Of a stretch of 49,507 nucleotides of DNA, positions 10,774-49,365 are shown in pieces. Source of the stretch: Bacteroides sp. (GTDB lineage Bacteria > Bacteroidota > Bacteroidia > Bacteroidales > Bacteroidaceae); assembly GCA_017621035.1 (NCBI GenBank), contig JAGATY010000061.1:1-49507 (forward strand), written 5' to 3'. Position 1 is the first letter of the stretch; every line of letters starts with the position of its first letter. Position numbers and translations under genes: made by a program. The notes under the pieces are model-generated. The model ran no database searches and was not told the DNA's origin. It saw nothing but the letters and a program-made list of their open reading frames with translations.

Positions 10774-10861
10774 GACCCTCGGCGACCTAGACCCTGACCC
10801 TCGGCGACCTAAGGCCCGACCCTCGGCGACCTTCAACGGGACCCTTGGGTACCTCCGGTTT
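10774..10861. repeat. 22-bp tandem array, four units (locus A)
   Basis: Units begin at 10774, 10796, 10818 and 10840. The first three share GACCCTCGGCGACCT exactly and the fourth (GACCCTTGGGTACCT) has diverged. The remaining 6-7 bp of each unit differ. The array lies in the gap between convergent lysO and susD (10659-11014), which holds no gene I can support. Confidence 0.85.
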
Positions 10862-10929
10862 TCCCCCTCCCGACAACCGGAAATAACAACGGCAGGAAAT
10901 GGGCCTCTGCTGCCTCACCTCCTGCCGGT

Positions 10930-10967
10930 AAAAAGGAAGCCGTCGTTGCTTCCCAGCGACGACGGCT
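10930..10967 (-). terminator. Terminator of the susCD operon
   Basis: A hairpin with arms AGCCGTCGTTGC (10938-10949) and GCGACGACGGCT (10956-10967) is followed on the minus strand by TCC and five T (10930-10934). It lies about 50 nt past the susD stop. Confidence 0.7.
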
Positions 10968-11014
10968 CTCGTATAGTATCAATTATTACTTATCTATTGT
11001 TGCCAATCCATATC

Positions 11015-12709
11015 TTACCATCCCGGATTGTTGGGCAACAACTGTTCGTTCAAGTCACTTTGTCCTGACGGAATAGGATAGAGGTAGTACTTCTTGTCGA
11101 AGTCGCGGGTCTTACCCTTACTTCCGTCAATGTAATTACCGCTCTTGTCACCTTCGTAAGTGGCATCGTTAGAGATGTTTGCACCCAGCAAGATGTCAGG
11201 ATAGTTGGTAGAGTTCAACTTGTCGAGCATATGCCAGCGCACCAAGTCCCAGTAGCGGAACCAGTTGTCGAACATCAGCTCAGAACGGCGCTCACGACGA
11301 ATCTCCCAAATCAGGTCACTTACACCGCGGTCATTCTTCGGGTCAGTGAAACCTACGTTAGTGGTCAGTGCAGGCAGACCGGCACGTGCGCGCAACTTGT
11401 TGATAGAGTTGTTCAGGTCGGTATCAGTGATACTACCTAACTCTGCACAAGCTTCGGCATAGTTCAGATAAACCACAGCCAGCCAGTAAAGCGGACAGTC
11501 GGTGTAGTTGCTGTTGCCTTGGTTACGGTCAGCCAGAGGCAGTGTGCCGTTGTCATACTTGGAAACGCCATAGCCGGTAGATGACTCTTGATTCATGTCA
11601 CCGTCGAAACGTTGGTTCGGGTTGCCTTCGTAGAGCAGCACGTGGTCGATGGTTTCGCTCAAACGCTTGTCGCGTACGGCAAGAATGTTGGTCAGATCCA
11701 ACTTTCCGTCAACCATCGGGGCAACGTCAGTATCGTCTAATGAAGAGAGCCCCATGGGTTTACCGTCAGTCAACAGGTAAGACTCGAAAGCATCCTTACT
11801 CAGACCTGAAATCTGGGTAGAAGTACAGGTATAGTCGATGAGCGAGTGCTTCAAGATGTCTTTTTCATATGCCTTGTAGAAAATCATCTCTGGGTTGCTG
11901 GCCAGACTGAGTGAGTTGTAGTTTGCCTGGTAAGAGTCATTCAGTTCATAGCTCTTTCCCATGATGAAGGAACAAGCATCTTTACAAGCTTGCAGGAACT
12001 TTTGTGCTCCGGCAGCATCGGCAGCGGGTTGTCCGTCGGCACTGCTGCGGTACTTGCGGAAGGTACCTTCCCACAAGCAGATGTCAGCCTTCATGGCGTT
12101 GGCCATGCTGCGGCTCCAAGTAATCTTGCTGGTGACATCGTTGATGTTGCTGGCGGCAAAATTCAAGTCTTCCAACACCTTATCCATCACCTCGTCACGG
12201 TCGGTACGTGGGCCATAGAGAACACCTTCGTCAGTGATGTCCAACTTCTTGTCGGTATAAGGTACGTCACCAAACATGCGCACCAACTGGAAGTAGTTGT
12301 AGGCACGCATCAAGCGACCCACACCTTCCCAGTGTGCTTTCACTGCATCGGTAGCGTCGATGTTAGGAATCTTTTCCAACATAGCGTTGGCACGGCGTAT
12401 TTCAATGTAGCTGTTACTCCAGGTACTGTTGCTGGTAAGGTAGTTTTTGTGATCCCAGTCAGCAAACGAGTTACCTGCCTGGTCGTCAGACAGAGTCTTG
12501 AAGTAGTACAAACCGGTACCGCTTCCGTTTCCGTAACCTGTGAATGAGGCGTAGAATACGTTGGCATAAGCCTGAACGTTTCCTTCCGATTTCCAGAAGT
12601 TGCTGTCGGTGAACTGATCCAGTGGCTCCTTGTCCAGGATAGAATCACACGCGGTCAGGGAACCTAACGTGAGGAGACCCAACCCAAGTATATAATTTAT
12701 CTTTTTCAT
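11015..12709 (-). CDS. RagB/SusD-family glycan-binding outer-membrane lipoprotein
   Basis: A surface lipoprotein of 564 residues that would cap the SusC-like transporter and bind its substrate. The signal peptide ends in the lipobox LTAC (Cys21). The SusD marks are DSILDKEPLDQFTDSNFW at the N-terminus, the TPR-rich region (RLMRAYNYFQLVRMFGDVPY), YLNYAEACAELG, and the C-terminal ERRSELMFDNWFRYWDLVRW. It follows susC by 23 nt and shares its operon. The substrate is unknown; the divergent GH3 enzyme hints at a beta-glucan or other beta-glucoside. Confidence 0.95.
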   Translation of the reverse strand: MKKINYILGLGLLTLGSLTACDSILDKEPLDQFTDSNFWKSEGNVQAYANVFYASFTGYGNGSGTGLYYFKTLSDDQAGNSFADWDHKNYLTSNSTWSNSYIEIRRANAMLEKIPNIDATDAVKAHWEGVGRLMRAYNYFQLVRMFGDVPYTDKKLDITDEGVLYGPRTDRDEVMDKVLEDLNFAASNINDVTSKITWSRSMANAMKADICLWEGTFRKYRSSADGQPAADAAGAQKFLQACKDACSFIMGKSYELNDSYQANYNSLSLASNPEMIFYKAYEKDILKHSLIDYTCTSTQISGLSKDAFESYLLTDGKPMGLSSLDDTDVAPMVDGKLDLTNILAVRDKRLSETIDHVLLYEGNPNQRFDGDMNQESSTGYGVSKYDNGTLPLADRNQGNSNYTDCPLYWLAVVYLNYAEACAELGSITDTDLNNSINKLRARAGLPALTTNVGFTDPKNDRGVSDLIWEIRRERRSELMFDNWFRYWDLVRWHMLDKLNSTNYPDILLGANISNDATYEGDKSGNYIDGSKGKTRDFDKKYYLYPIPSGQSDLNEQLLPNNPGW

Positions 12710-12732
12710 ATCATCATGTTTTTAGTGAAGTA

Positions 12733-15700
12733 TTAGAATGTAGCTTGCAAACCGAATGATACGGTACGATACATCGGGTCAATACGTCCCCAAGTACCGT
12801 TAGAGAAGCTGCCGTTTTCAGTAGCGTTGATTTCCGGGTCAACCGGGGCGTAACTGTTGTTAATCAACTCACAGATGTTGTCTGCACTGAAGTAAACACG
12901 TACCTTCTCCAGGTAAACCTTCTTGGTCAGCTGCTTCGGCAAAGTGTAACCGATGGTCAGGTTCTTGAAACGCAAGTAAGATGCGTCAATCAAGTAACGG
13001 CTCTGCGGATAGAAGTTGTTGGAACCTGCATCGATGACAGAGATAGTACCCTGGCTGGCATTACCTGCCCACATGCTCGGATAGAAAGCATTGACATTCT
13101 GGTTCTCTTTAGTCCAGTAGTCGGTTTGGTTCTCGTAGATAGCATCTGCACCACGGCTCATCGGGATAACGAATGCACCGGTTGACCAGATGTCACGCTT
13201 ACCTACTCCTTGGAAGAACATGTCGATGTCGAAGCCCTTCCAGCTACCACCCAGACGGAAGCTGTACTGATAACGCGGCAGTGTGTTACCGATTACCTTT
13301 AAGTCACCGTGGTCGTCGGCTGTACCGGCACCACCGTCAATCTTACCGTCACCGTTCAAATCCTTGAACTTGATATCACCCGGGCCGTAAACGAAGCTAC
13401 CCTTTTGCAGTGCGCTTTGGTCAGCATGGTTCTGAACGTCTGTATCATCCTTGAAGATGCCTTCTGTCTCAAAGCCCCAGATGTCGCCATAGTTCTTGCC
13501 ACTATAGTTACTGTTCAACAACTTGGAATCATTGTCCCACTTCGTGATTTCGGTCTTGAAGTCACCGATGCTGAAGTTACCGTAAACAGAGAGGTTGTCC
13601 AGGTCTTGGAAAGTGTGACGATAGTCGATGCTCAATTCCCAACCGCGAGTTCTCAACTCACCGGCATTTACTTGCGGGGCACTTGCACCCAATACCTGCG
13701 GCATGGTCTTGGCCGGAGCCAACATGTCTTTAGTAGTACGTTGATACCAGTCGAATGATACGTTCAGGTCATTGTTTAAGAACGCAAGGTCAAGACCCAA
13801 GTCAACTGTTTGGATGCGCTCCCACTTCAAAGTAGAAGATACCAGTGTAGGCAATTTATAACCAGTAAGTTTTGTGCCACCGCTATCCAGCCAGTTAACG
13901 GTTTGAGCACCGATGGTAGAGATAAACATGTTGCTACCAACAGCTTCGTTACCGATTTCACCAAATGATGCACGGAACTTACCATTGTTGACAATCTTCT
14001 TCAGCGGCTCGAAGTATGCCTCTTCACTGAAGCGGTAACCCATAGAACCTGAGGGGAAGAATGCCCAACGGTCGCTTGCGGGGAAGCTGGAAGAACCATC
14101 GTAACGGCCATTCAATTCAACCAACCAGATACCCTTCCAGTCATAGTTGATACGTCCGAACCAACCGGCAGTACCCCATTCGCTATGGCTACCGTCAACA
14201 GTTTGTGTACCGGTAGCAAGGTCAAACTCAGGAAGTGTGCTGTCCAGCAGGCCTGTACGCTTGCTGTAGTGCATTCTTCTGGTTCCTTCTTCTGCATTGG
14301 CACCCACCATGATGTTGAAGTTATGGTCTTTAGCCAAAGAGAACTCATAGTTTGCATACACGTTCAGGGCATAAGATTGGTTCTTATTGCTCTGTTGCAG
14401 GATGTATGAAGCTGATTGTGAAGATGCGTAGGCCGGAGAGTTCAGCTGACCACCCCAAGAGTTCCAGCAGTAAACCGGAAGACCCTCTTCCAGATAGTCT
14501 CTGTTCTGAATGCTTACGGTATAGTCTGCATTCAAAGTCAGGCCTTTCAACAGCTTAGCCTTTGCGAAACCACCGATACGGGTGTAAGTATTGTCAAGCA
14601 CTGCATCGCCGGCTTGCTTCAGGTAAGCAATGTCGTTACGCATGTCAACACCTTTATAATATCCGTACGGGCCAAAGAAGCTACCCCAACGCCACATGTA
14701 CTGATAAGTGTAACGACGGGTGTTAGGCTTGGTATAGTTACGGTCGTTGTAGCTGAAGCGTCCACCCACAGTTAACCATTTGGTGATGTCAGACTGTACG
14801 TTCATTGTTACATTGTAACGTTTCAGTTTATCGGGGTTGAAGTTTAGAACGCCTTCATCCTTGTTGTAGCCGAATGACAAGTAGTAAGAAGTCTTGCCGC
14901 TGGTACCTTGGATAGATACGTTATGCTTCTGAGCCGGCTTCCAGTTTTGGAACATGATGCCGACAACATCCCAGTCTGCTACATACACCGGAGTACCGCT
15001 GTCTGAGATGTAGAAGTCATCGCCTTCAACCATTTCACGATAACCGGCTTTTCCACCGTGGCGTTTCTTCCATGCTTCTGCTGCATTGATGAACTCGTCG
15101 TCCAGGTACATACCAAACAATTCATTGGCAACACCTTGGCGCTCATTAGCAGCACGCAAAGCACGTGCTTGAGTAGCTACATCGGGGAAGTCGGGCAACA
15201 TGGTCGGAGTAGACCAAGAGAAGTTGTTGCTGTAGTTGATGGTTACCTTATCTTTCTTCTGTGCAGACTTGGTGGTTACCAAGATTACACCGAATGCAGC
15301 ACGTGCACCGTAGATAGAAGAAGAGGCAGCATCTTTCAATACAGAAATGCTTTCGATGTCATCAGGATTCAAGATAGAGAGGTCGTCCATCTGTACACCG
15401 TCTACAATAATCAACGGGTTACTGGTAGCACTGTTACTCAACGTACCTGTACCACGGATGGTAATGGTAGGAGTGGCAGCAAGCTCACCACTTGAGTTCA
15501 TGATGGTCAAACCGGGAACCACACCCTGCAAAGCCTTGCTGATGTCACCTTGTGGACGTGCCTCCAGTGTCTTGCCTACATCTACTGTAGATACGGCACC
15601 GGTCAAGTTAGCTCTCTTCTGAGTACCATAACCTACGACTACTACTTCATCCAGCAATGCGGTGTCTTCTTTCAAGATAACTTTCAGGACAGAACCGGTT

Positions 15701-16026: not shown

Positions 16027-16623
16027 ATTCGGTAATGTTTTTTAGAAAAGGGTTTTAAAAAATAGATTGCCTTGTGCCTGCGGCATCAGAGGCAGAAAGG
16101 GTAGAATTTGTTTTGTGTTATTCCATAGGCAGATATCTTTTATAGGGGTTATTATGTTTGCTCTGTTTTCTCTCTCTTACCCTACAAACAGCATAGATGC
16201 ACACTTCATATCCTGTATGTAGGGTGTGTAAAAGTATTAAATTAAACTAAAGTAAAAAGCCTATCCTATGTCAATTTAACGTAAATTAACTGTCTGAGTC
16301 GTTAAAAGCACTGTTTTGCTATGTGGGCTTTGCAAGAGTCGTATGACTGCTTCGCTTGTGTATGTCGATTGAGGAGAAGAATAGTGAGGGAAAGAGTGGA
16401 AATTGAATGCCTGTTTTCAGTTTCTCTGACTTCTGTTGAAGCGATGTCTTCTTCTGTTGCCGCAGAGTGAAGATTGAAGTGTCGGGTACACCTTATATAT
16501 ATAGTATCACTTCTCAACTTGCAGATAGGGGAGAGGGGGAGGAATGAGGCAGAAGATTTACATTCTCTTACTCTCTTACTGAAAAAAGTTGGCGGATTGT
16601 TTTCATTCGTGCCAATATGTTGT
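16027..16623. other. Divergent gap between susC and the GH3 gene
   Basis: About 600 bp without a supportable gene. It is AT-rich near 16220-16290 and contains an inverted repeat at 16179-16225 (separate entry). No consensus -7 was found for susC on the minus strand, which suggests activator-dependent expression. A 71-codon frame at 16302-16517 lacks any sign of being real. Confidence 0.5.
16179..16225. promoter_or_regulatory. Inverted repeat upstream of susC, possible operator
   Basis: ACCCTACAAACAG (16179-16191) and CTGTATGTAGGGT (16213-16225) are inverted copies with one mismatch and a 21-bp spacer. The centre-to-centre distance is about three helical turns. It lies about 155 bp upstream of the susC start. 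It could bind a dimeric regulator, or form a leader hairpin. Confidence 0.5.
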
Positions 16624-16631
16624 TAATTTTG
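16624..16631 (+). promoter_or_regulatory. -7 element of the GH3 gene
   Basis: TAATTTTG matches TAnnTTTG. The nearest TTG (16597-16599) is 24 bp away, too far for a good -33. The predicted leader to ATG 16658 is about 20 nt. The site lies downstream of the TTG at 16589, so that earlier start is unlikely. Confidence 0.5.
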
Positions 16632-16657
16632 TCCGCAAGAACAACAAAATCAACACC

Positions 16658-18985: not shown

Positions 18986-19017
18986 GCCGGCTGAGAAATA
19001 GACTGACTGATAACTTG

Positions 19018-19068
19018 ACGAGTTGACAAGGAGGTGCACCGTAGCACCCTTGTCAACTCGTTCTTTTT
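19018..19068 (+). terminator. Terminator of the GH3 gene
   Basis: A long hairpin pairs ACGAGTTGACAAGG..GGTGC (19018-19036) with GCACC.TTGTCAACTCGT (to 19061), followed by TCTTTTT. It lies about 32 nt past the stop. Confidence 0.85.
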
Positions 19069-19208
19069 GTCACCTCTTTTCAGAGCTTATATAGACCTCG
19101 GGTTCATTAACTGCTCCCCTTGTTTTCTCTTGACCTCGCCACCCTTTTCTCTTATTTCTCTTTTCCTCAAGAAGCAGACCGGAGAACCGGCACATTAGAA
19201 CCAATTAT

Positions 19209-19274
19209 GCACAAGATGCCATCTTGTGTTGCATAAGATGGCATCTTGTGCAGCACGAGTTGGCATCTTGTGCA
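19209..19274. repeat. 22-bp palindromic tandem array, three units (locus B)
   Basis: Units start at 19209, 19231 and 19253. Each is close to a perfect dyad: half GCACAAGATG and half GCATCTTGTG, joined and abutting. Unit 2 and unit 3 end identically (GGCATCTTGTGCA). It lies in the convergent gap between the GH3 gene and the nitroreductase (18986-19390), which is otherwise empty apart from the terminator. Confidence 0.9.
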
Positions 19275-19390
19275 TCGTCCCTCCTAGTGCGGAGGGTGAA
19301 AGGGTTGTATCTGCCGCAGGGGCAGAATGAGTGCGGGGGAGGAGCGGAATGGGTGTGGGAGATGAAAAGGGTAAGTGTGGTGAGCGTGTG

Positions 19391-19996: not shown

Positions 19997-20091
19997 AAGT
20001 TCAAGGTTTTTATGAAAAGAAGAACACGCAGAGGGGGAAGGTTGTTCGGATGCGCTGAAAATATCTCCGGAACTTATTGTATATGAGTTGC

Positions 20092-25383: not shown

Positions 25384-25401
25384 TCACAGAAAAGGTCTCG
25401 G

Positions 25402-25502
25402 TATGTCTCAAATACCTCCTTTCTACCCCTCCTGAATATCTCCTACCTACCAACGCCGTATCAACTCCGTACCAACGCCGTATCAAGTCCGTTCCTATAG
25501 GA
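25402..25502. repeat. 11/22-bp tandem array, nine half-units (locus C)
   Basis: Eleven-base units beginning TAYC: core TACCAACGCCG (25448), TATCAACTCCG (25459), TACCAACGCCG (25470), TATCAAGTCCG (25481), then TTCCTATAGGA (25492). Alternation gives an exact 22-bp period with one change. Weaker units extend back in phase at 25402, 25413, 25424 and (after a 2-bp slip) 25437. The array lies 50 bp past the pdxB stop; the gap 25180-25554 holds no gene I can support. Confidence 0.85.
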
Positions 25503-25554
25503 GCGAAGAAGAGGCGGGTGAGACATAGGGTGGATATGGGTGTGATTTCTCTCT

Positions 25555-26598
25555 TTATTCTATCTCTACTTGGAAGGCGAGGGCTTCACGACGCAGCGGA
25601 TAGTCGCCACGCAATTTCTCAAACAGTTCGGGGTGTTGCTTCAGGGCATTGCTGTCACGACGTGGGTCATACATCTGCAGAAATGCTTCTGCTTGTGATG
25701 AGGCACGAAGATGTGTGACGGGAGGTGCTGGAGGCTCTATGTGATACTTAGCATCCACGTGGAAGAAGCGGCAGAGGGCATCCAGTGACATGCGGGTGGC
25801 GTTGGCCTTGCCGTCGGCAGAGTAGCCGGCAATATGTGGGGTAGCCAGGAAGGCACGTTGCAGCAGGGTGGGGTTGATGTCCGGCTCATTTTCCCAAACA
25901 TCAATGATGGCTTCAGTTACCACACCTTTCTCTAACGCCTCCAGCAGGGCTTCTGTTTTCACCACCTCTCCGCGTGAAGTATTGATAAGTACCGGTCTCT
26001 TCTTCAGTGATTGGAAGAAGGCTTCGTCGGCCAGGTGAAAGGTCTTGAATTTTCCCTCTCTATGCAGGGGTACATGGAAGGTGAGGATGTCGCACTCCTC
26101 TGCCAAAGTCCTCAGGGAGTGGTAGGCGGCACTGCCCTCTTGCTCGGCGCGGGGCAGGTCGTTTTGCAGTACACGCATTCCAAGTGCTTGTGCCACTTTC
26201 ACCACTTTACTGCCCACATTGCCTACCCCTATCACGCCAAGGGTCAGCTTGGAAAGTTCCATTCCTTTCAACTTTTGCAACAGCAGCAGGGAGGATTGCA
26301 CGTATTGTGCTACCGATGCCGAGTTACATCCCGGTGCATTGGTCCAGCAGATGCCGGCCTGACGACAGTACTCCACGTCGATGTGGTCGAAACCAATGGT
26401 GGCTGTGGCAATGAAACGCACGTGGCTTCCCTCCAACAGCTGGCGGTTGCAGCAGGTACGGGTACGCACAATCAGGGCGTCGGCATCTTTCACCAGCTCG
26501 GGGGTGAATGCTTTGCCGGGGGCGTAAATCACCTCGTCGGCAATCTTTTCAATAGCCTCTTGGATGTAAGGAATCTTGTTGTCTACAATAACTTTCAT
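25555..26598 (-). CDS. pdxB: Erythronate-4-phosphate dehydrogenase
   Basis: Oxidises 4-phosphoerythronate with NAD in pyridoxal-phosphate biosynthesis. It is a 347-residue D-2-hydroxyacid dehydrogenase with VRTRTCCNRQLL, ATATIGFDHID, the Rossmann loop GVIGVGNVGSKV, LINTSRGEVV with the catalytic Arg, and TPHIAGYSADGK with the catalytic His. The C-terminal dimerisation region typical of PdxB is present. It begins 28 nt after the M16 protease gene, so the two probably share a transcript from the promoter near 27904. Confidence 0.93.
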   Translation of the reverse strand: MKVIVDNKIPYIQEAIEKIADEVIYAPGKAFTPELVKDADALIVRTRTCCNRQLLEGSHVRFIATATIGFDHIDVEYCRQAGICWTNAPGCNSASVAQYVQSSLLLLQKLKGMELSKLTLGVIGVGNVGSKVVKVAQALGMRVLQNDLPRAEQEGSAAYHSLRTLAEECDILTFHVPLHREGKFKTFHLADEAFFQSLKKRPVLINTSRGEVVKTEALLEALEKGVVTEAIIDVWENEPDINPTLLQRAFLATPHIAGYSADGKANATRMSLDALCRFFHVDAKYHIEPPAPPVTHLRASSQAEAFLQMYDPRRDSNALKQHPELFEKLRGDYPLRREALAFQVEIE

Positions 26599-27883: not shown

Positions 27884-27903
27884 TGATAAAGTAGTTGAGG
27901 CAG

Positions 27904-27911
27904 CAAAAATA
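27904..27911 (-). promoter_or_regulatory. Probable -7 of the M16-pdxB operon
   Basis: CAAAAATA reads TATTTTTG on the minus strand, about 20 bp before the start codon. A -33 TTG is not obvious. Confidence 0.45.
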
Positions 27912-27923
27912 CAACAAAACTTA

Positions 27924-27953
27924 TTGCCGTTTATGGAAAATTGCAGATATTTG
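27924..27953 (+). promoter_or_regulatory. Candidate promoter of the KpsF-PfkB pair
   Basis: TTG (27924-27926), 19 bp, then GATATTTG (27946-27953), one mismatch from TAnnTTTG. The leader to ATG 28002 is about 42 nt. Confidence 0.45.
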
Positions 27954-28001
27954 CATGTTGTAGTTTAAAACCCAAACTTAAAACTCAAAACAGTAAGAGA
28001 C

Positions 28002-29683: not shown

Positions 29684-29771
29684 CATGCAAAATGAGCCTC
29701 TTTTTGATGCAGAATGAGCCTCCTTTTGATGCAAAAAGAGCCTCCTTTTGCATGCCGATAAGGCTCGTTTT
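29684..29771. repeat. 22-bp tandem array, four units (locus D)
   Basis: Units start at 29684, 29706, 29728 and 29750. The shared pattern is (G)ATGCA.AATGAGCCTC.TTTT; the last unit has drifted (GCATGCCGATAAGGCTC). Around the unit junctions GCAAAAAGAG and CTCCTTTTGC form a near-perfect dyad. It lies in the convergent gap between the PfkB kinase and the radical SAM gene (29528-29857), otherwise AT-rich with no gene seen. Confidence 0.9.
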
Positions 29772-34130: not shown

Positions 34131-34401
34131 GAACATTTCAGAGGATATTCCGGCCATTGCCTCCACTTTTTTCTCGCGCACTGTTGCATAAAGGGATGAG
34201 TGGGAAGATTACAGGTTATCATTTTGACACTTTGATTTCCCAACCGCCTGAGAATCGTTTATTTCAGTCCAAGAGGATAGTCGGTGCAGATTTTTGAAAC
34301 GGGAAACGGCTATCTTGCAGACAGCCAACGCGGTATCGAAATATTGACAAAAATTCTAGCGCGAAAAAGTGAGAAAAACGGGCAGGAAAAGGCCGGTTTT
34401 T

Positions 34402-34489
34402 GCTCCGCACAAGTCCCGGCTTTCTTCCACACAAGTGTGGCATTTGCTCCACACTTGTGTCCACCGCGCTCCACACTTGTGCGGAACAA
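34402..34489. repeat. 22-bp tandem array, four units (locus E)
   Basis: Units start at 34402, 34424, 34446 and 34468. Core variants are CTCCGCACAAGTC, TTCCACACAAGTGTGG, CTCCACACTTGTGTCC and CTCCACACTTGTGCGG. The half-site CCACAC/GTGTGG makes unit 2 a dyad, and the centre flips between AA and TT among units. The gap 34090-34709 holds no gene I can support; it also contains a promoter, this array and the miaB terminator. Confidence 0.85.
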
Positions 34490-37000: not shown

Positions 37001-37001
37001 G

Positions 37002-37064
37002 CAGTTGACAATGGACAGTTGATAATTGACAGTTGACAATTGATAGTAGAGAGTTGATAGTTAA
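37002..37064. repeat. Heptad tandem repeats (CAGTTGA/TAATTGA)
   Basis: Nine in-phase 7-bp units: CAGTTGA, CAATGGA, CAGTTGA, TAATTGA, CAGTTGA, CAATTGA, TAGTAGA, GAGTTGA, TAGTTAA. The array begins one base after the stop of the preceding gene and ends 63 bp before the CoA-transferase start. Confidence 0.85.
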
Positions 37065-37127
37065 CAGCTTTAACTGAAGAGATTAAGTAAGGAAACTTAA
37101 ATAACATAATTATAAAAGAACGAACAA

Positions 37128-38624
37128 ATGGCATTCAACTACATTTCAGCAGCAGAAGCTGCCAGCCTGATTAAACATGGCTACAACGTAGGCCTTAGCG
37201 GGTTTACCCCTGCCGGTACAGCCAAGGCCGTTACTGCCGAACTGGCAAAAATTGCAGAAGCAGAACACGCCAAAGGAAACCCTTTCCAGGTAGGTATCTT
37301 TACCGGAGCCTCTACAGGTGATTCATGTGACGGCGTTCTCTCACGCGCAAAAGCAATCCGCTACCGTGCACCCTACACTACCAACCCTGACTTCCGCAAG
37401 GCGGTGAACAATGGTGAGATTGCATACAATGACATTCACCTCTCTCAAATGGCTCAAGAGGTGCGCTACGGATTTATGGGTAACGTGGACATTGCAGTGA
37501 TTGAGGCCTGCGAAGTGACTGAAGATGGCAAAATCTATCTCACTGCTGCAGGAGGTATCTCACCTACCATTGCCCGACTGGCTCCGAAAATCATTATTGA
37601 ACTGAATGCCGCACACAGCAAGGCTGCTATGGGTTTGCACGACGTGTACGAACCGCTTGACCCGCCCTGCCGCCGCGAAATCCCTATCTACAAGCCGAGT
37701 GACCGCATCGGTCTGCCCTACATACAAGTAGACCCGAAGAAGATTGTAGGCATTGTGGAGACCAACTGGCCCGATGAGGCACGCTCTTTCACTGCTCCCG
37801 ACCCCGTTACTGACCAAATCGGTCAGCGTGTAGCAGACTTCTTGGCTGCTGACATGAAGCGTGGCATCATCCCTTCAACCTTCTTGCCGTTGCAATCCGG
37901 TGTGGGTAACATTGCCAACGCAGTGCTTGGTGCATTGGGACGCGACAAGACCATCCCTGCTTTCGAGATGTACACAGAAGTGTTGCAAGACGCTGTGGTA
38001 GACCTCATCCGTCAGGGCCGCGTGAAGTTCGGCAGTACCTGTTCACTCACTGTAACCAACCAGTGCTTGAATGGTATCTATGACGATATCGAGTTCTTTA
38101 AGGACAAGCTTGTGCTCCGTCCTTCAGAAATCTCTAACAATCCTGAAATTGTCCGCCGCTTAGGTATCATCTCTATCAATACCGCCATTGAGGCTGACAT
38201 CTACGGTAATGTGAACTCAACCCACATTGGTGGAACTAAGATGATGAACGGTATCGGTGGTTCTGGTGACTTCACCCGCAACGCATACATCTCTATCTTC
38301 ACCTGCCCGTCGGTAGCCAAAGAGGGAAAGATTAGTGCCATTGTACCGATGGTTTCTCACCACGACCACACAGAACACGACGTCAACATCATTGTGACTG
38401 AACAAGGTGTAGCTGACCTTCGTGGTAAAGGTCCTAAGGAACGTGCGCAAGCCATCATCGAGAACTGTGCACACCCTGACTACAAACAACTCCTGTGGGA
38501 TTATCTCAAACTGACTGACGGTAAGTCACAGACTCCGCACGCTGTAAAAGCTGCTCTCGCCCTCCATGCAGAGCTGGCCAAGAGTGGTGACATGCGCAAT
38601 GTGGACTGGGGACAGTTTAAGTAA
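37128..38624 (+). CDS. Succinyl-CoA:acetate CoA-transferase family enzyme
   Basis: A class I CoA-transferase of 498 residues (acetyl-CoA hydrolase/transferase family), which would move CoA between succinate or propionate and acetate during fermentation. GLSGFTPAGTAKAV near the N-terminus, IFTGASTGDSCDG, FEMYTEVLQDAVVDL with the Glu expected to carry CoA, and GIGGSGDFTRNAYIS near the oxyanion site are visible. The gene is strongly codon-regular and ends in a heptad repeat that starts at the stop codon. A perfect-stem terminator follows at 38719. Confidence 0.92.
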   Translation: MAFNYISAAEAASLIKHGYNVGLSGFTPAGTAKAVTAELAKIAEAEHAKGNPFQVGIFTGASTGDSCDGVLSRAKAIRYRAPYTTNPDFRKAVNNGEIAYNDIHLSQMAQEVRYGFMGNVDIAVIEACEVTEDGKIYLTAAGGISPTIARLAPKIIIELNAAHSKAAMGLHDVYEPLDPPCRREIPIYKPSDRIGLPYIQVDPKKIVGIVETNWPDEARSFTAPDPVTDQIGQRVADFLAADMKRGIIPSTFLPLQSGVGNIANAVLGALGRDKTIPAFEMYTEVLQDAVVDLIRQGRVKFGSTCSLTVTNQCLNGIYDDIEFFKDKLVLRPSEISNNPEIVRRLGIISINTAIEADIYGNVNSTHIGGTKMMNGIGGSGDFTRNAYISIFTCPSVAKEGKISAIVPMVSHHDHTEHDVNIIVTEQGVADLRGKGPKERAQAIIENCAHPDYKQLLWDYLKLTDGKSQTPHAVKAALALHAELAKSGDMRNVDWGQFK

Positions 38625-38715
38625 GTGGAAAGTTGAAAGATGAGAGTTGAAAGTTACAACTCTCTAAAGCCCTTAAGGCTCTTGAACTCCTTAAGATCTT
38701 TAAGGACTTTAAACA
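38623..38715. repeat. Composite array: heptads then nonamers, downstream flank of the surface-protein locus
   Basis: Heptads AAGTGGA, AAGTTGA, AAGATGA, GAGTTGA, AAGTTAC run from 38623 (inside the stop codon) to 38657. Nonamers CTCTAAAGC, CCTTAAGGC, TCTTGAACT, CCTTAAGAT, CTTTAAGGA, CTTTAAACA run from 38662 to 38715. The same order and strand recur at 48856-48945. Confidence 0.8.
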
Positions 38716-38718
38716 ACT

Positions 38719-38760
38719 CCATAAAAAAAGCTGCGAGATAGCTCGCAGCTTTTTTTATGG
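38719..38760. terminator. Bidirectional terminator
   Basis: A perfect 19-bp stem (38719-38737 with 38742-38760, loop ATAG) has GCTGCGAG / CTCGCAGC at its core and seven A/T pairs on each side. It therefore gives a T-run on both strands. It ends one base from the stop of the minus-strand lipoprotein gene and serves both that gene and the CoA-transferase. Confidence 0.9.
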
Positions 38761-38761
38761 G

Positions 38762-41065: not shown

Positions 41066-41090
41066 AGTCTAAAAAATAACTGTTATCAAT

Positions 41091-41126
41091 GACCTTAAGG
41101 ACTTTAAAGACCTTAAGAATCTTACC
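41091..41126. repeat. Nonamer tandem repeats between the PEGA and lipoprotein genes
   Basis: Four 9-bp units, GACCTTAAG, GACTTTAAA, GACCTTAAG, AATCTTACC, fill most of the 65-bp gap. They share the TTAA core with the arrays at 38662 and 48910. Confidence 0.8.
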
Positions 41127-41130
41127 CCAC

Positions 41131-42513: not shown

Positions 42514-42537
42514 TACTATTTAGTTTAGCCTCCTCAA

Positions 42538-42603
42538 CTCCCCCCGAGGGGGAGCTTATGGAAGCGGTTAATTTGGTTTCCCAACTCCTCCCCTTGCGGG
42601 AGG
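42538..42603. repeat. Two GC-rich hairpins between the LRR and PEGA genes
   Basis: CTCCCCC CGA GGGGGAG (42538-42554) is a perfect 7-bp-arm palindrome. CCTCCC / GGGAGG (42587-42603) is a second one. Neither has a T-run, so they may stabilise or partly attenuate the transcript between the two genes rather than end it. Confidence 0.55.
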
Positions 42604-42616
42604 CAGGGAGGGACTT

Positions 42617-45600
42617 TTACTTCACAATCACTTTCTGTCCTTCCAGCAAATAGATGCCGTTGCCCAGTCCGCGTACCTCATTCTGACCCTCTTGTACCTC
42701 AATGGTGCGTACTGTCTGACCGCTCACGTTATAGATGTGGATGGTACGTGCCGCGTTGCTCTCAATGTAGAGCACACCGCCTCGTGCATACACCTTCACT
42801 GCCTGGTCAGGCATCAGAATGGTATCTTCAATACCGGTAATCTCACCATTGCCGCCGCCAATGGAGTAGTACAAAGGCCCACGTGTGCTGGCTGTGGTTA
42901 CGTTGGTTTCCTTACTTACCAGATAGGCCTGGAAAGGATCTACTGCCGGTTCCCAATCTCCACCATCATTATAGTTCTTGATGAAGACACTACCATTTTT
43001 ATAGGTCTTGTCATCTGCATAGTAATAGTTGTCCTCATTCAGTGCATAGATTGAGTCGTTCTTGAACAAAGATTCATAAGTGGGAACAAAGTCAAACTTA
43101 GTGCCTACGCTGCGTTTCAATGCACCCTCAGTCTTACTCAGCAATACACCGGCCTCATTATTGGCGGCAAAAGTCACATTACCACTGATGTTATACTCAC
43201 TGGGATACTTGTTGTTGTTCGGCATGCAGATTAAATAAGGTGTGTGCGCCTTGATGGCAGTGGCAGCCTTGTAGTTACCATCTGTTCCTAACTCATACAG
43301 CCAATAGGGCAGTGCACCCTCTACATTACTGCCAAAGGGGGCAATGTAAATGGTATCATAAGTAGTCTTACCATTGTAGTAGTTATCTTTTACATAGTAA
43401 GTCTCTGTTACATCAAACGGCAGCACCAAAGTTTTCCAGCCACCGGCCTCTGCATAGCCACTCTCTGTATTGAAGTGTTTGGTATAGGTTACATGCTTAG
43501 CCTTAATGTCTTGGCTTTGGCTATAAGTAGAATAATAAGCACCATATTCAGGATTACTACCATTGGTACCTACTGTGTATTTATCAGTTAAGCCATTGTA
43601 AAAAATAGCATTTATGCCATCTGTTGAACTGACAGAACCGCCTTCTGGTAAAAATAGATTTCTAATACTTTTGAACTTATCTTTTGGAAATTGTTTGGTA
43701 CTATTCCAGTAAACATCGTTAAGAGAACTCCAGACACCACTATCTTTAATATCTAATCCTGCATTAGGATTAATGATAAGCTTGTTAATAGAGGTATTTA
43801 AAAATGCCCATGTTCCAATATATTGAATAAAAGAAGGAATTATTACTGTTTCACTTTTACCTCCTCTAAATGTGAAATCTCCAATTTCATTTAGACTTTC
43901 AGGAAATGTAAGCTCTTTGATACAGTGTCCTTCAAAAGCATTATGCCCTATTTTTGTTAGGTTACTAGACCAAATTACTTTTTCAAGTGGGACGTTTGAA
44001 AATGCAGCCTCTCCAATACTTGTTAGAGTGTTGGGAAATATAATTTCTTTCAGGTTCTTAGCTGCATTCGCAAATGTACGATTTTCTATGGTTGTAAAGG
44101 TTGAATTGGAGAAGTCTAATTTGCTAATATTCAAGTTTTCACAATATTCAAATGCAATTCCACCAATTTCTGTTAAAAGTAGTCCATCTAAATTGATGTT
44201 AGTCAATCTTACGCAACTCCAAAAGGCTCCGTATTTTATGGCTGTAACTGTATTAGGAAGCTGAATAGATTCTAGATTTCTACAATCCCAAAAGGTGTTA
44301 TTACTAATTGATGAGATTGTTGTTTTTGTTAAATCTACAGTTTTAAGGAAATCGCAATCTTCAAATGCATACTCTCCAATACTTTTAATAGATGCCGGAA
44401 GTGTAATTGTTGTTAAACTATCACAGTTCTGAAAAGCATAAGCAGCAATAGCTTCCGGTGCAGCTCCATCAGCTAACAAAATTTCTCTGATACTTGTGCC
44501 ACCAAAACCTCCAAGTGTTTTCATTGACTTGGGGAAAGTGACACTTCTCAAATATTCACATCCGGCAAAGGCATTTTCTCCCAAAGTGGTGATACCTTCC
44601 TTCAGAATAACCTCTTCTAGACCAGAATCTTGGAAAGCTCCCTGTTCAATAGTCTGTATGCTACCGGAGATAGTCACAGATTTTAGTGATTTACAGCCAT
44701 AAAAAGCATGGTATTGAATAGTCAATAAGCCGGAAGGGAAGGTGATGTCACTCAGCTTCTCACAACCGGAGAAAACTTCACGGCTGATATCACTCATATT
44801 AGCAGGTAAGTTGATACTTACAAGATCTTTACAATCCTTGAAAGCTCCTTCTGCAATAGTCATTACTAGTGAGGGAAGTTCTATTTCCTTCAAACCAGTG
44901 TTTGCAAAGGTATAGGAATTGATTGCCATCAACTTCTCAGGTAGAGTTATTTCTGTAAGGGCTGTACAGCCATAAAAAGCATTATTGCCAATGGTGTTCA
45001 ATTCGGTAGATAAATTGATTTGATTCAGGGCTGAACAACCGCCAAAGGCATTATATTCTATGCTTGTAACACTATTGGGCACTGTGAAACTGGTTAAAGC
45101 TGTGCAGTTCTGAAATGTATAGCTAAGAATTTCTGTTATGCCTTCAGGCAAAGATATAGATTTCAATGAACTACATCCATTAAAGCATCTTCTACCAAGA
45201 GAAGTAACTGTTGCGGGAATGGAAAGTGTTGTTAGAGCTGAGCAACCTTCAAATGCGCTGGCTAAGTCGGTAAGATTTTCAGGCAGTGTAATAGAAGTTA
45301 ATGCTGTGCAGTTCTGAAACATAAAGTAACTTAATTTTGTGATTCCAGCACCCAATGTTACATTGTTTAGTTTTGTACAATCTGCAAAAGTATAGCTATT
45401 GTATCCACTATATGCTAAATCTTCGTTCTGAATTTTATTCCTTGTATTTAAAGTAGAGGGGAGTGCAGCACTATTCAATTCGATACATCCTTGAAAAGTA
45501 TAGTTTCCCATAAATTCTACTCCTTCGGGGATAGATACTGTGGTCAAACTAGTACAATCGCCAAAAGCTTTTGGGCCAATATACACCAATGCAGTAGGGA

Positions 45601-46144
45601 ATGTAATCTCTTTCAGGCTTACGCAACGGGCAAAAGCAGCACATCCATAAGAAGATTTTTCGTCGTTAGCCGATTGTGTCATAGGAGACCCATAAAGTAT
45701 GGCATTCCCATTCCCATCTGTAGCCCATGGGCCTTCACTTTCATTCCAGTAATACCATGAACCTATACTATACACATCCTTCGGCATCACAATTTTAGTC
45801 AAATTGGTCATGGCATAAAACATAAAGTCACCAATGACATTGTTTTGTGTGTAGTAACTGGTGGTTCCGGTTACATGATAGGCGTTTACTTTGTCTTCCA
45901 CAATCTGCGCATTCTGTAGGTTCAGTACAGAGAGCTTTTCGCGCATGGACTTGATGGTAAGAATATCCAGGCCATTCAGCGGGCCGCTGATGGTAAGGTC
46001 TGTTACAGAGGTCAGATAGTCGGCCGGTAACTGGTCTTTCAAGGTTCCGGCAGTGGTTACTGTTACGCTGGTCTGTGCCTGCAAGTTTAGTGTACTTGCC
46101 AGCAACATGCAAACAGCCACGTAGAGATATTTATGTAGTTTCAT
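42617..46144 (-). CDS. BspA-like leucine-rich-repeat surface protein
   Basis: A 1175-residue exported protein, signal peptide LYVAVCMLLASTLNLQAQ. Residues about 100-800 hold about two dozen ~23-residue repeats of the LRR_5 type (LxxIxLPxxLxxIGxxAFxxCxxL). A region at 820-1090 without repeats is followed by a C-terminal ~75-residue domain (VKVYARGGVLYIESNAARTI ... GLGNGIYLLEGQKVIVK) that looks like a type IX secretion sorting domain. Such proteins bind host or bacterial surfaces in relatives. The DNA for the LRR part (about 43600-45800) is clearly richer in A+T than its neighbours, which suggests separate origin. It starts 26 bp after the first lipoprotein gene. Confidence 0.82.
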   Translation of the reverse strand: MKLHKYLYVAVCMLLASTLNLQAQTSVTVTTAGTLKDQLPADYLTSVTDLTISGPLNGLDILTIKSMREKLSVLNLQNAQIVEDKVNAYHVTGTTSYYTQNNVIGDFMFYAMTNLTKIVMPKDVYSIGSWYYWNESEGPWATDGNGNAILYGSPMTQSANDEKSSYGCAAFARCVSLKEITFPTALVYIGPKAFGDCTSLTTVSIPEGVEFMGNYTFQGCIELNSAALPSTLNTRNKIQNEDLAYSGYNSYTFADCTKLNNVTLGAGITKLSYFMFQNCTALTSITLPENLTDLASAFEGCSALTTLSIPATVTSLGRRCFNGCSSLKSISLPEGITEILSYTFQNCTALTSFTVPNSVTSIEYNAFGGCSALNQINLSTELNTIGNNAFYGCTALTEITLPEKLMAINSYTFANTGLKEIELPSLVMTIAEGAFKDCKDLVSINLPANMSDISREVFSGCEKLSDITFPSGLLTIQYHAFYGCKSLKSVTISGSIQTIEQGAFQDSGLEEVILKEGITTLGENAFAGCEYLRSVTFPKSMKTLGGFGGTSIREILLADGAAPEAIAAYAFQNCDSLTTITLPASIKSIGEYAFEDCDFLKTVDLTKTTISSISNNTFWDCRNLESIQLPNTVTAIKYGAFWSCVRLTNINLDGLLLTEIGGIAFEYCENLNISKLDFSNSTFTTIENRTFANAAKNLKEIIFPNTLTSIGEAAFSNVPLEKVIWSSNLTKIGHNAFEGHCIKELTFPESLNEIGDFTFRGGKSETVIIPSFIQYIGTWAFLNTSINKLIINPNAGLDIKDSGVWSSLNDVYWNSTKQFPKDKFKSIRNLFLPEGGSVSSTDGINAIFYNGLTDKYTVGTNGSNPEYGAYYSTYSQSQDIKAKHVTYTKHFNTESGYAEAGGWKTLVLPFDVTETYYVKDNYYNGKTTYDTIYIAPFGSNVEGALPYWLYELGTDGNYKAATAIKAHTPYLICMPNNNKYPSEYNISGNVTFAANNEAGVLLSKTEGALKRSVGTKFDFVPTYESLFKNDSIYALNEDNYYYADDKTYKNGSVFIKNYNDGGDWEPAVDPFQAYLVSKETNVTTASTRGPLYYSIGGGNGEITGIEDTILMPDQAVKVYARGGVLYIESNAARTIHIYNVSGQTVRTIEVQEGQNEVRGLGNGIYLLEGQKVIVK

Positions 46145-46170
46145 ATGTTATGATTTTAATAGTTACAAAA

Positions 46171-48846
46171 TTATTCGTTGGCACCGGGGGTGGGGTTATC
46201 ATCTGCTCCCGGTGCCGGCTTATCGCTGCTCTCGGTGGTGAAAGTTCTCTCACTACTGTAGCCTACGCCCTTGGCATTGATGGCATAAGCACGCACACGG
46301 TAGCGGGTGCTGCCTGTCAGGTTGGTCAGCTTGGTTGAGAAACTGTCGCTTTCACTGGTCACCACTATCTTGGTAGCGTTGTCCATAGTCAGCTCGGTAC
46401 CGTTATCTACGGCATAGAGGAATCCCTTTTCGGTAATCTCCATGTTACCATTGTTATTGATTCCGCTGCTTACCCATGCGCTGGTAGCATAGATTTCAGT
46501 TACATTAGGATAATCCAACTTTGGCAAGCTGGTATGGTCGTGGTCACCGGGCAGAGGATTGTCTCCGGAAGCAGGTGGCAACTTGGCTGTGCGGAAGAAT
46601 GTTCCTCCTCCTGCATGTCCATTTTTGTTTCTTGCGATAGCTAAAACCTGATACTCAGTATCTGGTTCTAGTCCCGTAATGGTTGCTGTTACGACATTAC
46701 CTTCTCTTACACCGGGTTGTATTTTATCTTCTTCAGAACTATATGCAAGCTTCCAGTATAAGCTATGTTCTGTAAGCTCAGCACCTCCATCATTTATAAT
46801 ATCAAAGGTGAAAGTCAATGAATTATAAGTAGCCTCTGTGCAAGTCAAATTACCAACTTCCGGTGTCGTACTGGTACCCGTCTCAAACTGCAGTGCTCTG
46901 CTATATCCATAGCCGATACTATTCTTTGCATAGGCACGAATGCTGTACAAAGTACTGTAGCTCAGTCCTGTCAGCTTCAAGGTGAACTCGTCGGTAGTGG
47001 CATCACTGGGGAAGACGGTAGAGATGCCGTCACCTACACTGGGAGTCTCTGTCCAATCTTTGGGAACAACCACAAAGCCACGCTCGGTAATGGTCTCACC
47101 CTCACCACCGTAGTTGCTGATGTAGCTGGTGGCCATGGCGTTGTCATCACCAATCTCATAGATGTTCAGAGCCGTGAGCTGCGGTGCAGTGTGTTGTGCA
47201 GTGGTGAACTCGGCAATCTGACTGTAGTTGGTACCCTTGGCATTGGTGGCAAAGGAGCGTATGTAGTAGATGGTGCCGCCAGAGAGGCCATCTATGCTGG
47301 CGGTGATGTCGTTACCGGCATCGGTAGAGGTCAGCTTGGAGGCATTCTCCAGTGTAGGCTCAGAGAGGGTTCCGCTGTAGACGAATCCTTTCTCTGTGAT
47401 GGCCAGACCACCGTTGCTGGCAATGGTGTGGCGAATCTTGGCACCAGTCTCTGTCAGGTCGTAGATTTCCGGCATACCGTCCAGTGAGGGGGTGAAGGTG
47501 CCTTCGGTGGTGAAGATAACGTCACTACTGTAGAAGGTACCGTCGCGGGTGATGGCATAGGCACGTGCATGGTAAGTGCTGTTCTCTGCCAGGCCGGTCA
47601 GTGAGGCTGCTACCTGTGTGGTGCTGCCACTGTTGTCCACAAGCTTGGTGCCGTTGCCGTCGATGTCAGGATTGGCTTGCTGCCCGTAGCAGATTCCCTG
47701 CTCGCTGATAGTGGTTCCCGCCGTGGTAGCCTTCAGCACGGTAACGGTAGCCGAAGAGGAGGTGAGGTCGGTCACAGTGGCCTGTGTCAAGGAGACTACC
47801 TGCTCGCTGTCGGTAGTAAGCTCAAGAGTCTCACTATAGCCGGTACCCTTCTCATTGATGGCATAGGCGCGGTAGTAGTACTTGGTATTGGCAGCCAGGC
47901 CGGTAAGCACTCCGGTGAAGCGGGTGTTGTTGCCGTCGGCCGTCACACTCTGGCTGTTGTCCACCGTCGGGCGGTTACTCTCACTGCTGTAAACAAAGCC
48001 ATACTCGGTAGGCGTGAATCCATAGTCCTCGGTAACAGAGGCGGTCACGGTAGCTGCATAGGCACCCGGACTGCTTGCTGCATCGGCCACAACCACCGGC
48101 GTCATCAAGGGGGTGGTAGTGATGATGACAGACTCGCCATAGCCGGTACCGGCATCATTGGTCGCATAGGGGCGTACCAGGTAGCTGGTGTTAGCGCTAA
48201 GGCCTGAGAGTGAGGCACTGAAGTCATTGCCGCTACCGCTGGCATCGGCCGTCTCGCCTTCGCCTAGCATCGGGTCACCGGCATTCTCAATGTAGAGGGT
48301 GTAGATGAATCCCTTTACCGTGGGATCCACACCACCGTTGTCAATTACCGAAGCTGTCAGGGAGACAGTGCTCTCTGTCAGGCCGCTGCCGGTAGCCACA
48401 CTCAGGGTGGGCACGGTAGCCTCTTCGGTGTCGAAGCTGTTGGTCTTGCCTTTGCTGACAGCCTTTCCGCTACGTGCAAAGATGCAGTAGTAGTAGGTCT
48501 GTCCGGGCTCCAGGTTGCTGACCGTGGCAGAGTAGTTGCTGCCGTCTCCCGAGGAGTTGGCCATTACTTCGCCGGCACCGGTCAGGCTGGCCGAGGTGGA
48601 ATAGAAGAAGCCGACCTCCAACTGCTGGTTCTCGCTGTTGGGGTTTGCCACTACCGACCCTTGGAACGTGGCTCCCGAGCGTGTCAGCCCGGTGGCCGTG
48701 TTGGTGGTAAGGGTCGGCGCATAGCTCGCCGGCTCATCATTCGTCTCGCAGCCCAAGGCAAACAACAGCACACACAAATATGCACAGCAGTGGCTGACAA
48801 ACCTCTTTGTGCATAGCTGATTGGTGTAGTGTTTTACCATAAGCAA
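46171..48846 (-). CDS. Repeat lipoprotein with about eight FN3-like domains
   Basis: An 891-residue paralogue of the lipoprotein at 38762, with lipobox ALGC (Cys33) and a longer N-region. The start could be the first Met or the Met at residue 3. Eight FN3-like repeats are seen (pattern GLxxxTxYYxRAYAxNxxGTGYS). The seventh differs: it is closer to an ordinary FN3 (GLEPDTEYQVLAIARNKNG) and its DNA (46590-46870) is AT-rich. After it comes SGDNPLPGDHDHTS near residue 760, which matches the C-terminal tail of the paralogue; one more repeat and a second tail (DDNPTPGANE) follow. This is a likely product of domain addition past an old C-terminus. It is first gene of the locus. Confidence 0.75.
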   Translation of the reverse strand: MLMVKHYTNQLCTKRFVSHCCAYLCVLLFALGCETNDEPASYAPTLTTNTATGLTRSGATFQGSVVANPNSENQQLEVGFFYSTSASLTGAGEVMANSSGDGSNYSATVSNLEPGQTYYYCIFARSGKAVSKGKTNSFDTEEATVPTLSVATGSGLTESTVSLTASVIDNGGVDPTVKGFIYTLYIENAGDPMLGEGETADASGSGNDFSASLSGLSANTSYLVRPYATNDAGTGYGESVIITTTPLMTPVVVADAASSPGAYAATVTASVTEDYGFTPTEYGFVYSSESNRPTVDNSQSVTADGNNTRFTGVLTGLAANTKYYYRAYAINEKGTGYSETLELTTDSEQVVSLTQATVTDLTSSSATVTVLKATTAGTTISEQGICYGQQANPDIDGNGTKLVDNSGSTTQVAASLTGLAENSTYHARAYAITRDGTFYSSDVIFTTEGTFTPSLDGMPEIYDLTETGAKIRHTIASNGGLAITEKGFVYSGTLSEPTLENASKLTSTDAGNDITASIDGLSGGTIYYIRSFATNAKGTNYSQIAEFTTAQHTAPQLTALNIYEIGDDNAMATSYISNYGGEGETITERGFVVVPKDWTETPSVGDGISTVFPSDATTDEFTLKLTGLSYSTLYSIRAYAKNSIGYGYSRALQFETGTSTTPEVGNLTCTEATYNSLTFTFDIINDGGAELTEHSLYWKLAYSSEEDKIQPGVREGNVVTATITGLEPDTEYQVLAIARNKNGHAGGGTFFRTAKLPPASGDNPLPGDHDHTSLPKLDYPNVTEIYATSAWVSSGINNNGNMEITEKGFLYAVDNGTELTMDNATKIVVTSESDSFSTKLTNLTGSTRYRVRAYAINAKGVGYSSERTFTTESSDKPAPGADDNPTPGANE

Positions 48847-48855
48847 AAAAGTATT

Positions 48856-48945
48856 TAAGTTATTAGTTGTCAGTTATTGGTTATTAGTTGTCAGTTATTA
48901 GGGCGCTAAGGACTCTAGAGACTTTAAGGACCTTAAAGACCTACC
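48856..48945. repeat. Composite array: heptads then nonamers, upstream flank and leader
   Basis: Heptads TAAGTTA, TTAGTTG, TCAGTTA, TTGGTTA, TTAGTTG, TCAGTTA, TTAGGGC (48856-48904). Nonamers GGACTCTAG, AGACTTTAA, GGACCTTAA, AGACCTACC (48910-48945). It lies between the promoter at 48998 and the start of the first lipoprotein gene, so it would be in the mRNA leader. Confidence 0.8.
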
Positions 48946-48997
48946 ACCCTTGTCAACTCACCTCTTTATTCTTCATTCTTCATCATAAAAGAATTGC

Positions 48998-49030
48998 CAA
49001 AAGTACTCATTTTCCTACAAATACACCAAA
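48998..49030 (-). promoter_or_regulatory. Promoter of the four-gene surface-protein locus
   Basis: On the minus strand TTTG (complement of CAAA, 49027-49030), then TACTTTTG (complement of CAAAAGTA, 48998-49005), with 21 bp between the CAA and the -7. The predicted leader is about 145 nt and contains the heptad and nonamer arrays. No other consensus promoter is seen inside the locus. Confidence 0.7.
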
Positions 49031-49255
49031 CATTTGTAGAGAAAAATCAAAAACTGTAAAGGAATGTTTTACAAGGAGAGGAACTTCAGTTAACCAGAAT
49101 CGGCATAAGGCCTGAAAGGCCATAAGTCGAACTGATGTTTAGTCAGTATCCCTTTATGCTTCCACCGCGCAGGAAAGTGTATCATCAATCAACTTATTGA
49201 TATTTGCCACACCCTCTTGGGGGTGTCTGAGGGCCTTTAAGGTGCTTCCCTCTCC
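49031..49255. other. Gap upstream of the surface-protein locus
   Basis: No gene was seen in 49031-49255. A small hairpin CATAAGGCCTGAAAGGCCATAAG-like (AGGCCT/AGGCC arms near 49106-49121) and CACCCTCTTGGGGGTG (49210-49225) are the only structures noted. The window ends in repeats, so the neighbour beyond is unknown. Confidence 0.4.
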
Positions 49256-49365
49256 GATATATCCTTCTATCTCATTTGATATTGCTTCGATATATATTGG
49301 ATAAAGTACTGATATTCCAAGGAGATATCAAAGGAATATCGAACCAATATTGAATGGATAAGGGG
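49256..49365. repeat. 11/22-bp phased GATAT array, five units (locus F)
   Basis: 22-bp units at 49256, 49278, 49300, 49322 and 49344. Half-units of 11 bp begin GATATATCC, GATATTGCT, GATATATAT, GATAAAGTA, GATATTCCA, GAGATATCA, GGAATATCG, CCAATATTG. Sequence is loosely conserved, but the GATA/ATATC elements recur on the same helical face. Confidence 0.65.

Follow-up and report, generated by a model that had tools for sequence, protein, structure and literature searches.

Tandem arrays in the window

The stretch analyzed here (49,507 bp, hereafter the window) is contig JAGATY010000061.1, C90 in our numbering, of a Bacteroides sp. genome of 2.64 Mb in 93 contigs, which is 91% complete. Its PdxB protein is up to 77% identical to PdxB of Bacteroides species, which marks the genome as Bacteroides-like. 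Between ordinary metabolic and surface genes the window carries six short repetitive elements, designated A to F (Table 1). Each was scored locally at lags 8–44, with dinucleotide shuffles of its own gap as the control (floor p = 1/301). Lag 22 was the strongest in A to E (scores 33, 31, 25, 36, and 25, respectively; p at the floor in each case) and Tandem Repeats Finder returned a period of 22 at all five; locus C is in addition an 11-bp repeat (lag-11 score 21). An earlier sequence-only reading of the window had listed six loci with a 22-bp period. This holds for A to E but not for F, an 11-bp-phased dyad element with a top score of 15 at lag 11 and a score of 6 at lag 22 (p = 0.13). Across 17 copies of family F, lags 11, 22, and 33 are prominent. 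Part of the right arm of B (19318-19380) was separately detected as a weak array. No Rfam 15 match above the gathering score is found in the window.

Table 1. Coordinates, character, and surroundings of the elements in the window. Places are counted in the own genome, the window copy being included in every case.
Feature	Coordinates	Strand	Character	Places	Genomic context
Array A	10774..10854	.	3.7 units of 22 bp	19	Convergent gap flanked by a lysine-exporter-like gene (9723-10658, +) and by a SusD-like gene (11015-12709, -)
Array B core	19208..19274	.	Three 22-bp units, each nearly palindromic; dyad center near 19241	38 strong	
Left arm of B	19098..19207	.	About five degenerate 22-bp units phased with the core; family-level evidence		
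Right arm of B	19275..19384	.	Degenerate 22-bp units phased with the core; family-level evidence		
Array C	25437..25495	.	11-bp direct repeats (22-bp double unit)	18	Adjoins the 3′ end of pdxB (25555-26598, -)
Array D	29685..29771	.	22-bp units with dyad	4	Convergent gap with a PfkB-like gene on one side and a radical-SAM gene on the other
Array E	34389..34489	.	22-bp units with CACTTGTG/CACAAGTG core	About 33 at E < 1e-6 among the 100 matches listed	Between a DUF5020 gene and miaB
Element F	49256..49365	.	Long imperfect inverted repeat, internal phase 11 bp and not 22 bp	29	

Genome-wide period and placement

The observation holds well beyond the window. A strict self-match scan (lags 8–60) of 841 kb of the same genome, consisting of the window and 40 further stretches and amounting to about 32% of the genome, gave 55 matches at lag 22, seven at lag 44, and six at lag 11. 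A second series, with 25 matches at lag 14, 19 at lag 21, and further peaks at 28, 35, and 42, is that of heptamer arrays. At lags outside these and the multiples of seven the count was three or fewer, and the third-order Markov control gave zero matches at every lag. In the window, heptamer arrays (AGTTGAT/AGTTGAC and variants) lie at 10734-10767, 37002-37066, 38623-38655, 48858-48901, and 49379-49507, one of them reaching the contig end. When 341 heptamer-free gaps (101 kb) were scanned alone, 72 matches were found at lag 22, 34 at lag 44, 13 at lag 11, and two at lag 33, as against none at lag 20, one at lag 23, and at most seven at any other lag; one dinucleotide-shuffled set of these gaps gave zero at the same threshold. 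The comparison of intergenic autocorrelation with shuffled gaps, which the sequence-only reading had proposed as a test, thus gives a sharp genome-wide peak at 11, 22, and 44.

Looser scoring of the same 841 kb returned 91 arrays. None has its midpoint, by which arrays were assigned to gene or gap, inside a gene called by our home-made caller, and 74 of the 383 gaps of at least 60 bp in the genome sample hold an array. Seven arrays at stretch ends were left out of the gap types; the other 84 fall into convergent (19), tandem (48), and divergent (17) gaps, and their density per bp in convergent gaps is about 1.9 times that in either other type. Among gaps of 60–400 bp an array is present in 9/43 convergent, 21/199 tandem, and 2/52 divergent ones; above 400 bp the fractions are 7/12, 23/53, and 12/24. 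The arrays had been described as following gene 3′ ends and as missing from divergent gaps. The former agrees with the bias in tandem gaps, where 34 of the 48 arrays lie closer to the upstream stop. The latter is correct for the three divergent gaps originally named (9555-9722, 16027-16657, and 27884-28001, all without lag-22 signal) and for short divergent gaps, but was rejected as a general rule since half of the long ones are occupied.

Occurrence in related genomes

Eighty pdxB loci of named genomes (1.47 Mb) yielded 55 hits at lag 22 and 0–11 at the other lags from 12 to 39, counted irrespective of coding overlap. Their sequences are mostly unlike those of the own genome. Clustering of 150 lag-22 arrays by unit, likewise irrespective of coding overlap, produced 86 clusters, a few of them low-complexity and 35 with an own-genome member, from which it follows that the lag-22 peak does not come from one family. 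Among the 86 units are 23 dyads and eight 11-bp direct doubles, classes that make up 1.9% and 1.3% of shuffles, respectively.

Named isolates (400 kb), screened for coding overlap, gave 16 arrays at lag 22 versus four at lag 21 and two at lag 23, all 16 lying outside called genes. By isolate the lag-22 counts were ten in 160 kb of B. ndongoniae, four in 80 kb of B. oleiciplenus, two in 80 kb of B. fragilis Q1F2, and none in 80 kb of B. graminisolvens. Nothing was found at lag 22 in 234 kb of stretches from five genomes that belong to the order but to other families, or in 400 kb from 20 genomes of other orders and classes. The samples taken thus show the 22-bp pitch to be restricted to Bacteroides and close genera. 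A shared period had been taken in the sequence-only reading to indicate either a process or a protein that reads spacing; the genome-wide peak and the lead of lag 22 in relatives with other sequences are in keeping with that inference.

The gap downstream of pdxB, in which array C resides, was compared directly in 76 of the 80 loci (L089, L098, L105, and L118, with a match near the contig end, were omitted); L075 was without a gene call, and 50 of the remaining loci have a gap of more than 60 bp. The best lag was 11 or 22 in 16 of these 50, where about 2.7 would be expected if 37 lags were equally likely. Several unlike sequences are involved, those of L057, L059, and L068 resembling C by eye. 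B. timonensis (L054) has an array in a gap of 148 bp, whereas the gap of B. cellulosilyticus (L056) measures 1 bp. The neighbor of pdxB differs among relatives, making synteny of the whole gap set unusable.

A core similar to CACTTGTG is found again in arrays from several species that have little else in common (L051:3303-3387, L071:11086-11173, L076:15683-15776, and array E of the window) and may represent an older shared family.

Dispersed families and copying

No two of the elements A to F share sequence, as had been noted. The further claim that they are private sequences and not copied elements did not survive the genome search, in which every one proved to belong to a dispersed family (Table 1). 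For B, 79 matches were found, and 40 of 45 candidates were scored; for E, 40 of 43. Similar copies are dispersed and 70–130 bp in length. Alignment of eight A and ten B copies reveals that the order of the units and their position-specific variants are mostly kept, although two A copies have their first two units swapped; this indicates that whole blocks have been copied. The families are species-bound where tested: B was matched in one of 18 other same-genus genomes and in none of 12 others of the order, and one B. ndongoniae array had no match in seven other species, with one full and one weak match in its own genome.

Dispersal of compact blocks nearly private to one species, together with an element F that forms a single inverted repeat over its entire length, might indicate non-autonomous mobile elements of the miniature inverted-repeat transposable element (MITE) or repetitive extragenic palindromic (REP) type, comparable to a minisatellite-bearing MITE, with a transposase that would require 22-bp-phased subterminal sites. 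We regard this as improbable. The conservation of B fades in phase over 110–130 bp without sharp element ends, and the B. ndongoniae array tested has the scant copy number just given. The Y1 transposase domain (PF01797) was matched nowhere in the own genome, at 91% completeness, and in five of 14 control genomes; other transposases were not searched for. On this basis a REP system of the RAYT (REP-associated tyrosine transposase; IS200) kind was rejected.

Phase in the flanks of family B

In a leave-one-out test of the flanks of B, in which each flank was compared with a profile of the others, register 0 was recovered at 22–66 bp from the core in 32 of 34 copies on the left and 30 of 34 on the right (chance, 1.1), at pairwise identities of 0.35 and 0.37. 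At 66–110 bp the counts were 22 and 19 of 34, with an identity of 0.31, and at 110–154 bp they fell to 6 and 3. Autocorrelation of the flanks alone peaks at lags 22 (z 10) and 44 (z 7). In the consensus the right arm shows a single degenerate 22-bp unit and the left arm the mirror image of it, both weakening outward. Spacing is held, therefore, where sequence is hardly conserved. Neutral decay to near-background identity would be expected to bring register-breaking indels as well. Phase retained with the sequence almost lost favors a reader of spacing over slippage. Copies for the phase and covariation tests of A, B, E, and F were subjected to strict duplicate removal (shared flank 30-mer), one B and two F copies being dropped for short flanks; only the looser removal was applied to C and D, and it also underlies the covariation result for C and, in part, the consensus used to look for element ends. 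In a 208-bp lag-22 run at L151:13698-13905 an array of other sequence enters a B copy with the register unbroken.

The B flanks also bear upon descent from one ancestral 22-bp minisatellite, the length of which would be kept by homogenization (unequal exchange and gene conversion) while its sequence drifts, with nothing reading the spacing. Long homogeneous arrays do exist, of about 11 units at L175:474-726 and about ten at L105:817-1044, both apparently enlarged in the recent past by exact steps of 22 bp; the retained order of units and the turnover of families between species also fit. Yet the arms of B are phased at 31–37% identity, where homogenization is plainly not acting, and one drifting unit does not readily give rise to dyad families on the one hand and direct 11-bp doubles on the other. 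We consider satellite-like descent unlikely, while granting it some weight.

Folding, termination, and promoters

Relative to shuffles, the RNA folding z was -10 for B, -5 for D, -3.8 for E, and -3.2 for F; A (+0.6) and C (+0.2) do not fold. Values below -3 were obtained for 35 of 90 arrays (one of the 91 was too long and was omitted) and for 17 of 90 array-free gaps, drawn from 129; 24 of the 90 arrays gave z > 0. In E, complementarity near the center was higher within a copy than between copies (0.572 versus 0.492, p 0.0005), and F displays a slight excess of the same kind (p 0.019). In the 34 copies of B the arms behave in the opposite manner, same-copy complementarity lying below cross-copy complementarity (0.842 versus 0.868 and 0.425 versus 0.504, both p 0.0005), and nothing was seen in the arms of A or of C.

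Stem-loops or cruciforms, acting in 3′-end protection or bidirectional termination, would account for the foldable elements, for the covariation in E and F, and for the 3′ bias in tandem gaps, and 22 nt would correspond to two turns of A-form helix. They would not account for the arrays that do not fold or for the covariation of B, a hairpin can do without an exact tandem pitch, and in gap D a terminator-like hairpin (29584-29550, -) lies apart from the array. General selection for hairpins was rejected on the minority of arrays with z below -3 and on the opposed behavior of E and B, and we think hairpin or RNA elements an improbable explanation. That folding is not general and that the arms of B are less complementary within a copy suggest that the DNA duplex is the likelier substrate.

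Intrinsic terminators were rejected as well: terminator-like sites are not in excess (18 versus 18.7 and 11 versus 18.2 in shuffles). None lies inside the six window arrays, and there is one weak site (19191-19178, -) within the left arm of B. At window positions 38718-38761, in a convergent gap without a 22-bp array, lies a strong hairpin that resembles a bidirectional intrinsic terminator. Bidirectional Rho-dependent termination, with pyrimidine-rich words about 11 nt apart, would be in accord with arms of B that are C-rich when read inward (C 0.32–0.35, G 0.14–0.19) and with the inward C-G skew of arrays in convergent gaps (0.15 and 0.14, versus 0.08 and 0.08 in array-free ones). In tandem gaps, however, the sense strand of arrays has a mean C-G skew of -0.08 and is positive in 21 of 48, which is the wrong sign; this reading was rejected, and we give it hardly any credence.

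The Bacteroides promoter consensus, TAnnTTTG, is present in 25% of 148 background stretches. Directed toward the array, it was found within 150 bp on the left in 0/13 A, 0/20 B, 3/20 E, and 0/17 F copies, and within 150 bp on the right in none, three, one, and one, respectively. A promoter role was rejected, C excepted, because the motif is rarer in these flanks than in the background. In the C family (window 25395-25520 and copies L039-L048), eight of 13 copies have the promoter-like TAnnTTTG motif 63–116 bp upstream (left), and some appear by eye to lie inside short ATG-started frames.

Interpretation

The arrays have an invariant pitch, are confined to intergenic DNA in the sample, form dispersed families and, in the flanks of B, retain phase with little conservation of sequence. 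The constancy of a two-turn pitch, the dyad or direct arrangement of half-units, the absence from genes, and the phase in B together argue for a DNA-level constraint on spacing. We surmise that the arrays are intergenic, helically phased DNA-binding arrays to which protein binds cooperatively; this is the explanation we favor, though tentatively, and we would put it a little short of an even chance. A DNA-binding protein, or a related set with differing sequence preferences, would line up along one helix face, with neighboring molecules docked every 22 bp (two turns) and 11 bp per half-unit in direct or inverted orientation. Binding would presumably nucleate at the center, where three to four units match well, and, as family B suggests, extend to either side across units that match less and less. 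The resulting protein–DNA filament could shape the chromosome locally or insulate transcription, and would lie more often close to the 3′ ends of genes. Families would spread by copying inside a genome and give way to others from species to species, such that the sequence turns over and the pitch stays. Of the rival readings, satellite-like descent, hairpin RNAs, and MITE-like mobility would each explain a part of the findings.

Several points weigh against this proposal. The reader protein is hypothetical, and the many families in each genome would need either many proteins or one with loose sequence preference. B-DNA with 10.5 bp per turn predicts a pitch of 21, not 22. In eight same-genus genomes (441 kb) lag 22 leads only modestly (11, versus five at lag 21, five at lag 23, and four at lag 24) and does not form a sharp peak; one part of this sample alone gave three, versus four at lag 21 and three at lag 23. 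The lag scans were ungapped and so favor arrays without indels. The strong arm result is confined to B: beyond 22 bp the 15 copies of A and the 27 of E have arms that score at chance or close to it, which doubles as a control of the method, and the flanks of F at 22–66 bp fit best at an 11-bp shift (19/26 left, 9/26 right). At the cut-offs used, 56 of the 86 units qualify neither as dyads nor as 11-bp doubles. The same-copy complementarity in E, and to a slight degree in F, counts in the same direction.

A wider proposition, which we advance as possible but rather doubtful, is that Bacteroides and close genera possess an unrecognized chromosome-wide class of intergenic elements that is set by geometry and not by sequence (dyad or direct arrays at exactly 11 or 22 bp), respecified in each species, and read by a center-nucleating protein filament that tracks one helix face and extends two turns at a time. 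Few gut bacteria have been studied as much as Bacteroides, yet such arrays are found in the fraction of gaps reported above, and they could account for a good part of the intergenic DNA of the group. They offer a directly testable handle on a nucleoid or insulator protein, or on a copying mechanism, not yet recognized.

Comparison with known systems

A literature search that covered few subscription journals, and is thus a weak test of absence from print, found no description of a clade-wide 22-bp period. Plasmid iterons and the 11-bp boxes of the PhoB and ParR type are tandem sites about 11 or 22 bp apart that place proteins on one helical face, and the arrays resemble them in pitch. They differ in that each cognate protein of an iteron or box has a single sequence, located at an origin, a promoter, or a centromere, whereas dozens of sequences occur here in ordinary gaps. 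In satellite DNA with a constant monomer length, the length outlives the monomer sequence; the arms of B, in contrast, keep phase without homogenization. The bacterial repeats known to us do not hold a constant pitch while their letters change from one species to the next.

A GTAG or CGTC tag marks the REPs of the two main super-families, RAYT systems have a Y1 transposase, and we know of no fixed 22-bp pitch among REP traits. REPs and bacterial interspersed mosaic elements share with the arrays an extragenic location, palindromic repeats, many copies, and several families (PMC3733652).

The BrickBuilt MITE of Porphyromonas gingivalis consists of 23-nt tandem arrays without spacers in 19 dispersed, always intergenic copies, with a leader and a tail and with short inverted repeats at the termini that resemble those of the IS5 family; 41-, 23-, and 22-nt tandem direct repeats of strain W83 are cited in the same paper (PMC4596501). 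The likeness lies in short spacerless tandem arrays, dispersed and intergenic, in the same order of bacteria. The differences are that BrickBuilt has one sequence, whereas many unlike units with one period are present here, and that its leader and tail have no common counterpart, nor any sharp end, in the consensus of A, B, C, and E copies with 150–190 bp of flank (IS5-type ends not having been searched for), F being an inverted repeat throughout. Of the printed cases considered, BrickBuilt, a 23-nt minisatellite inside a MITE, is the closest. In view of the 22-nt repeats cited for W83, parts of the present pattern may have been noticed earlier without the general rule.

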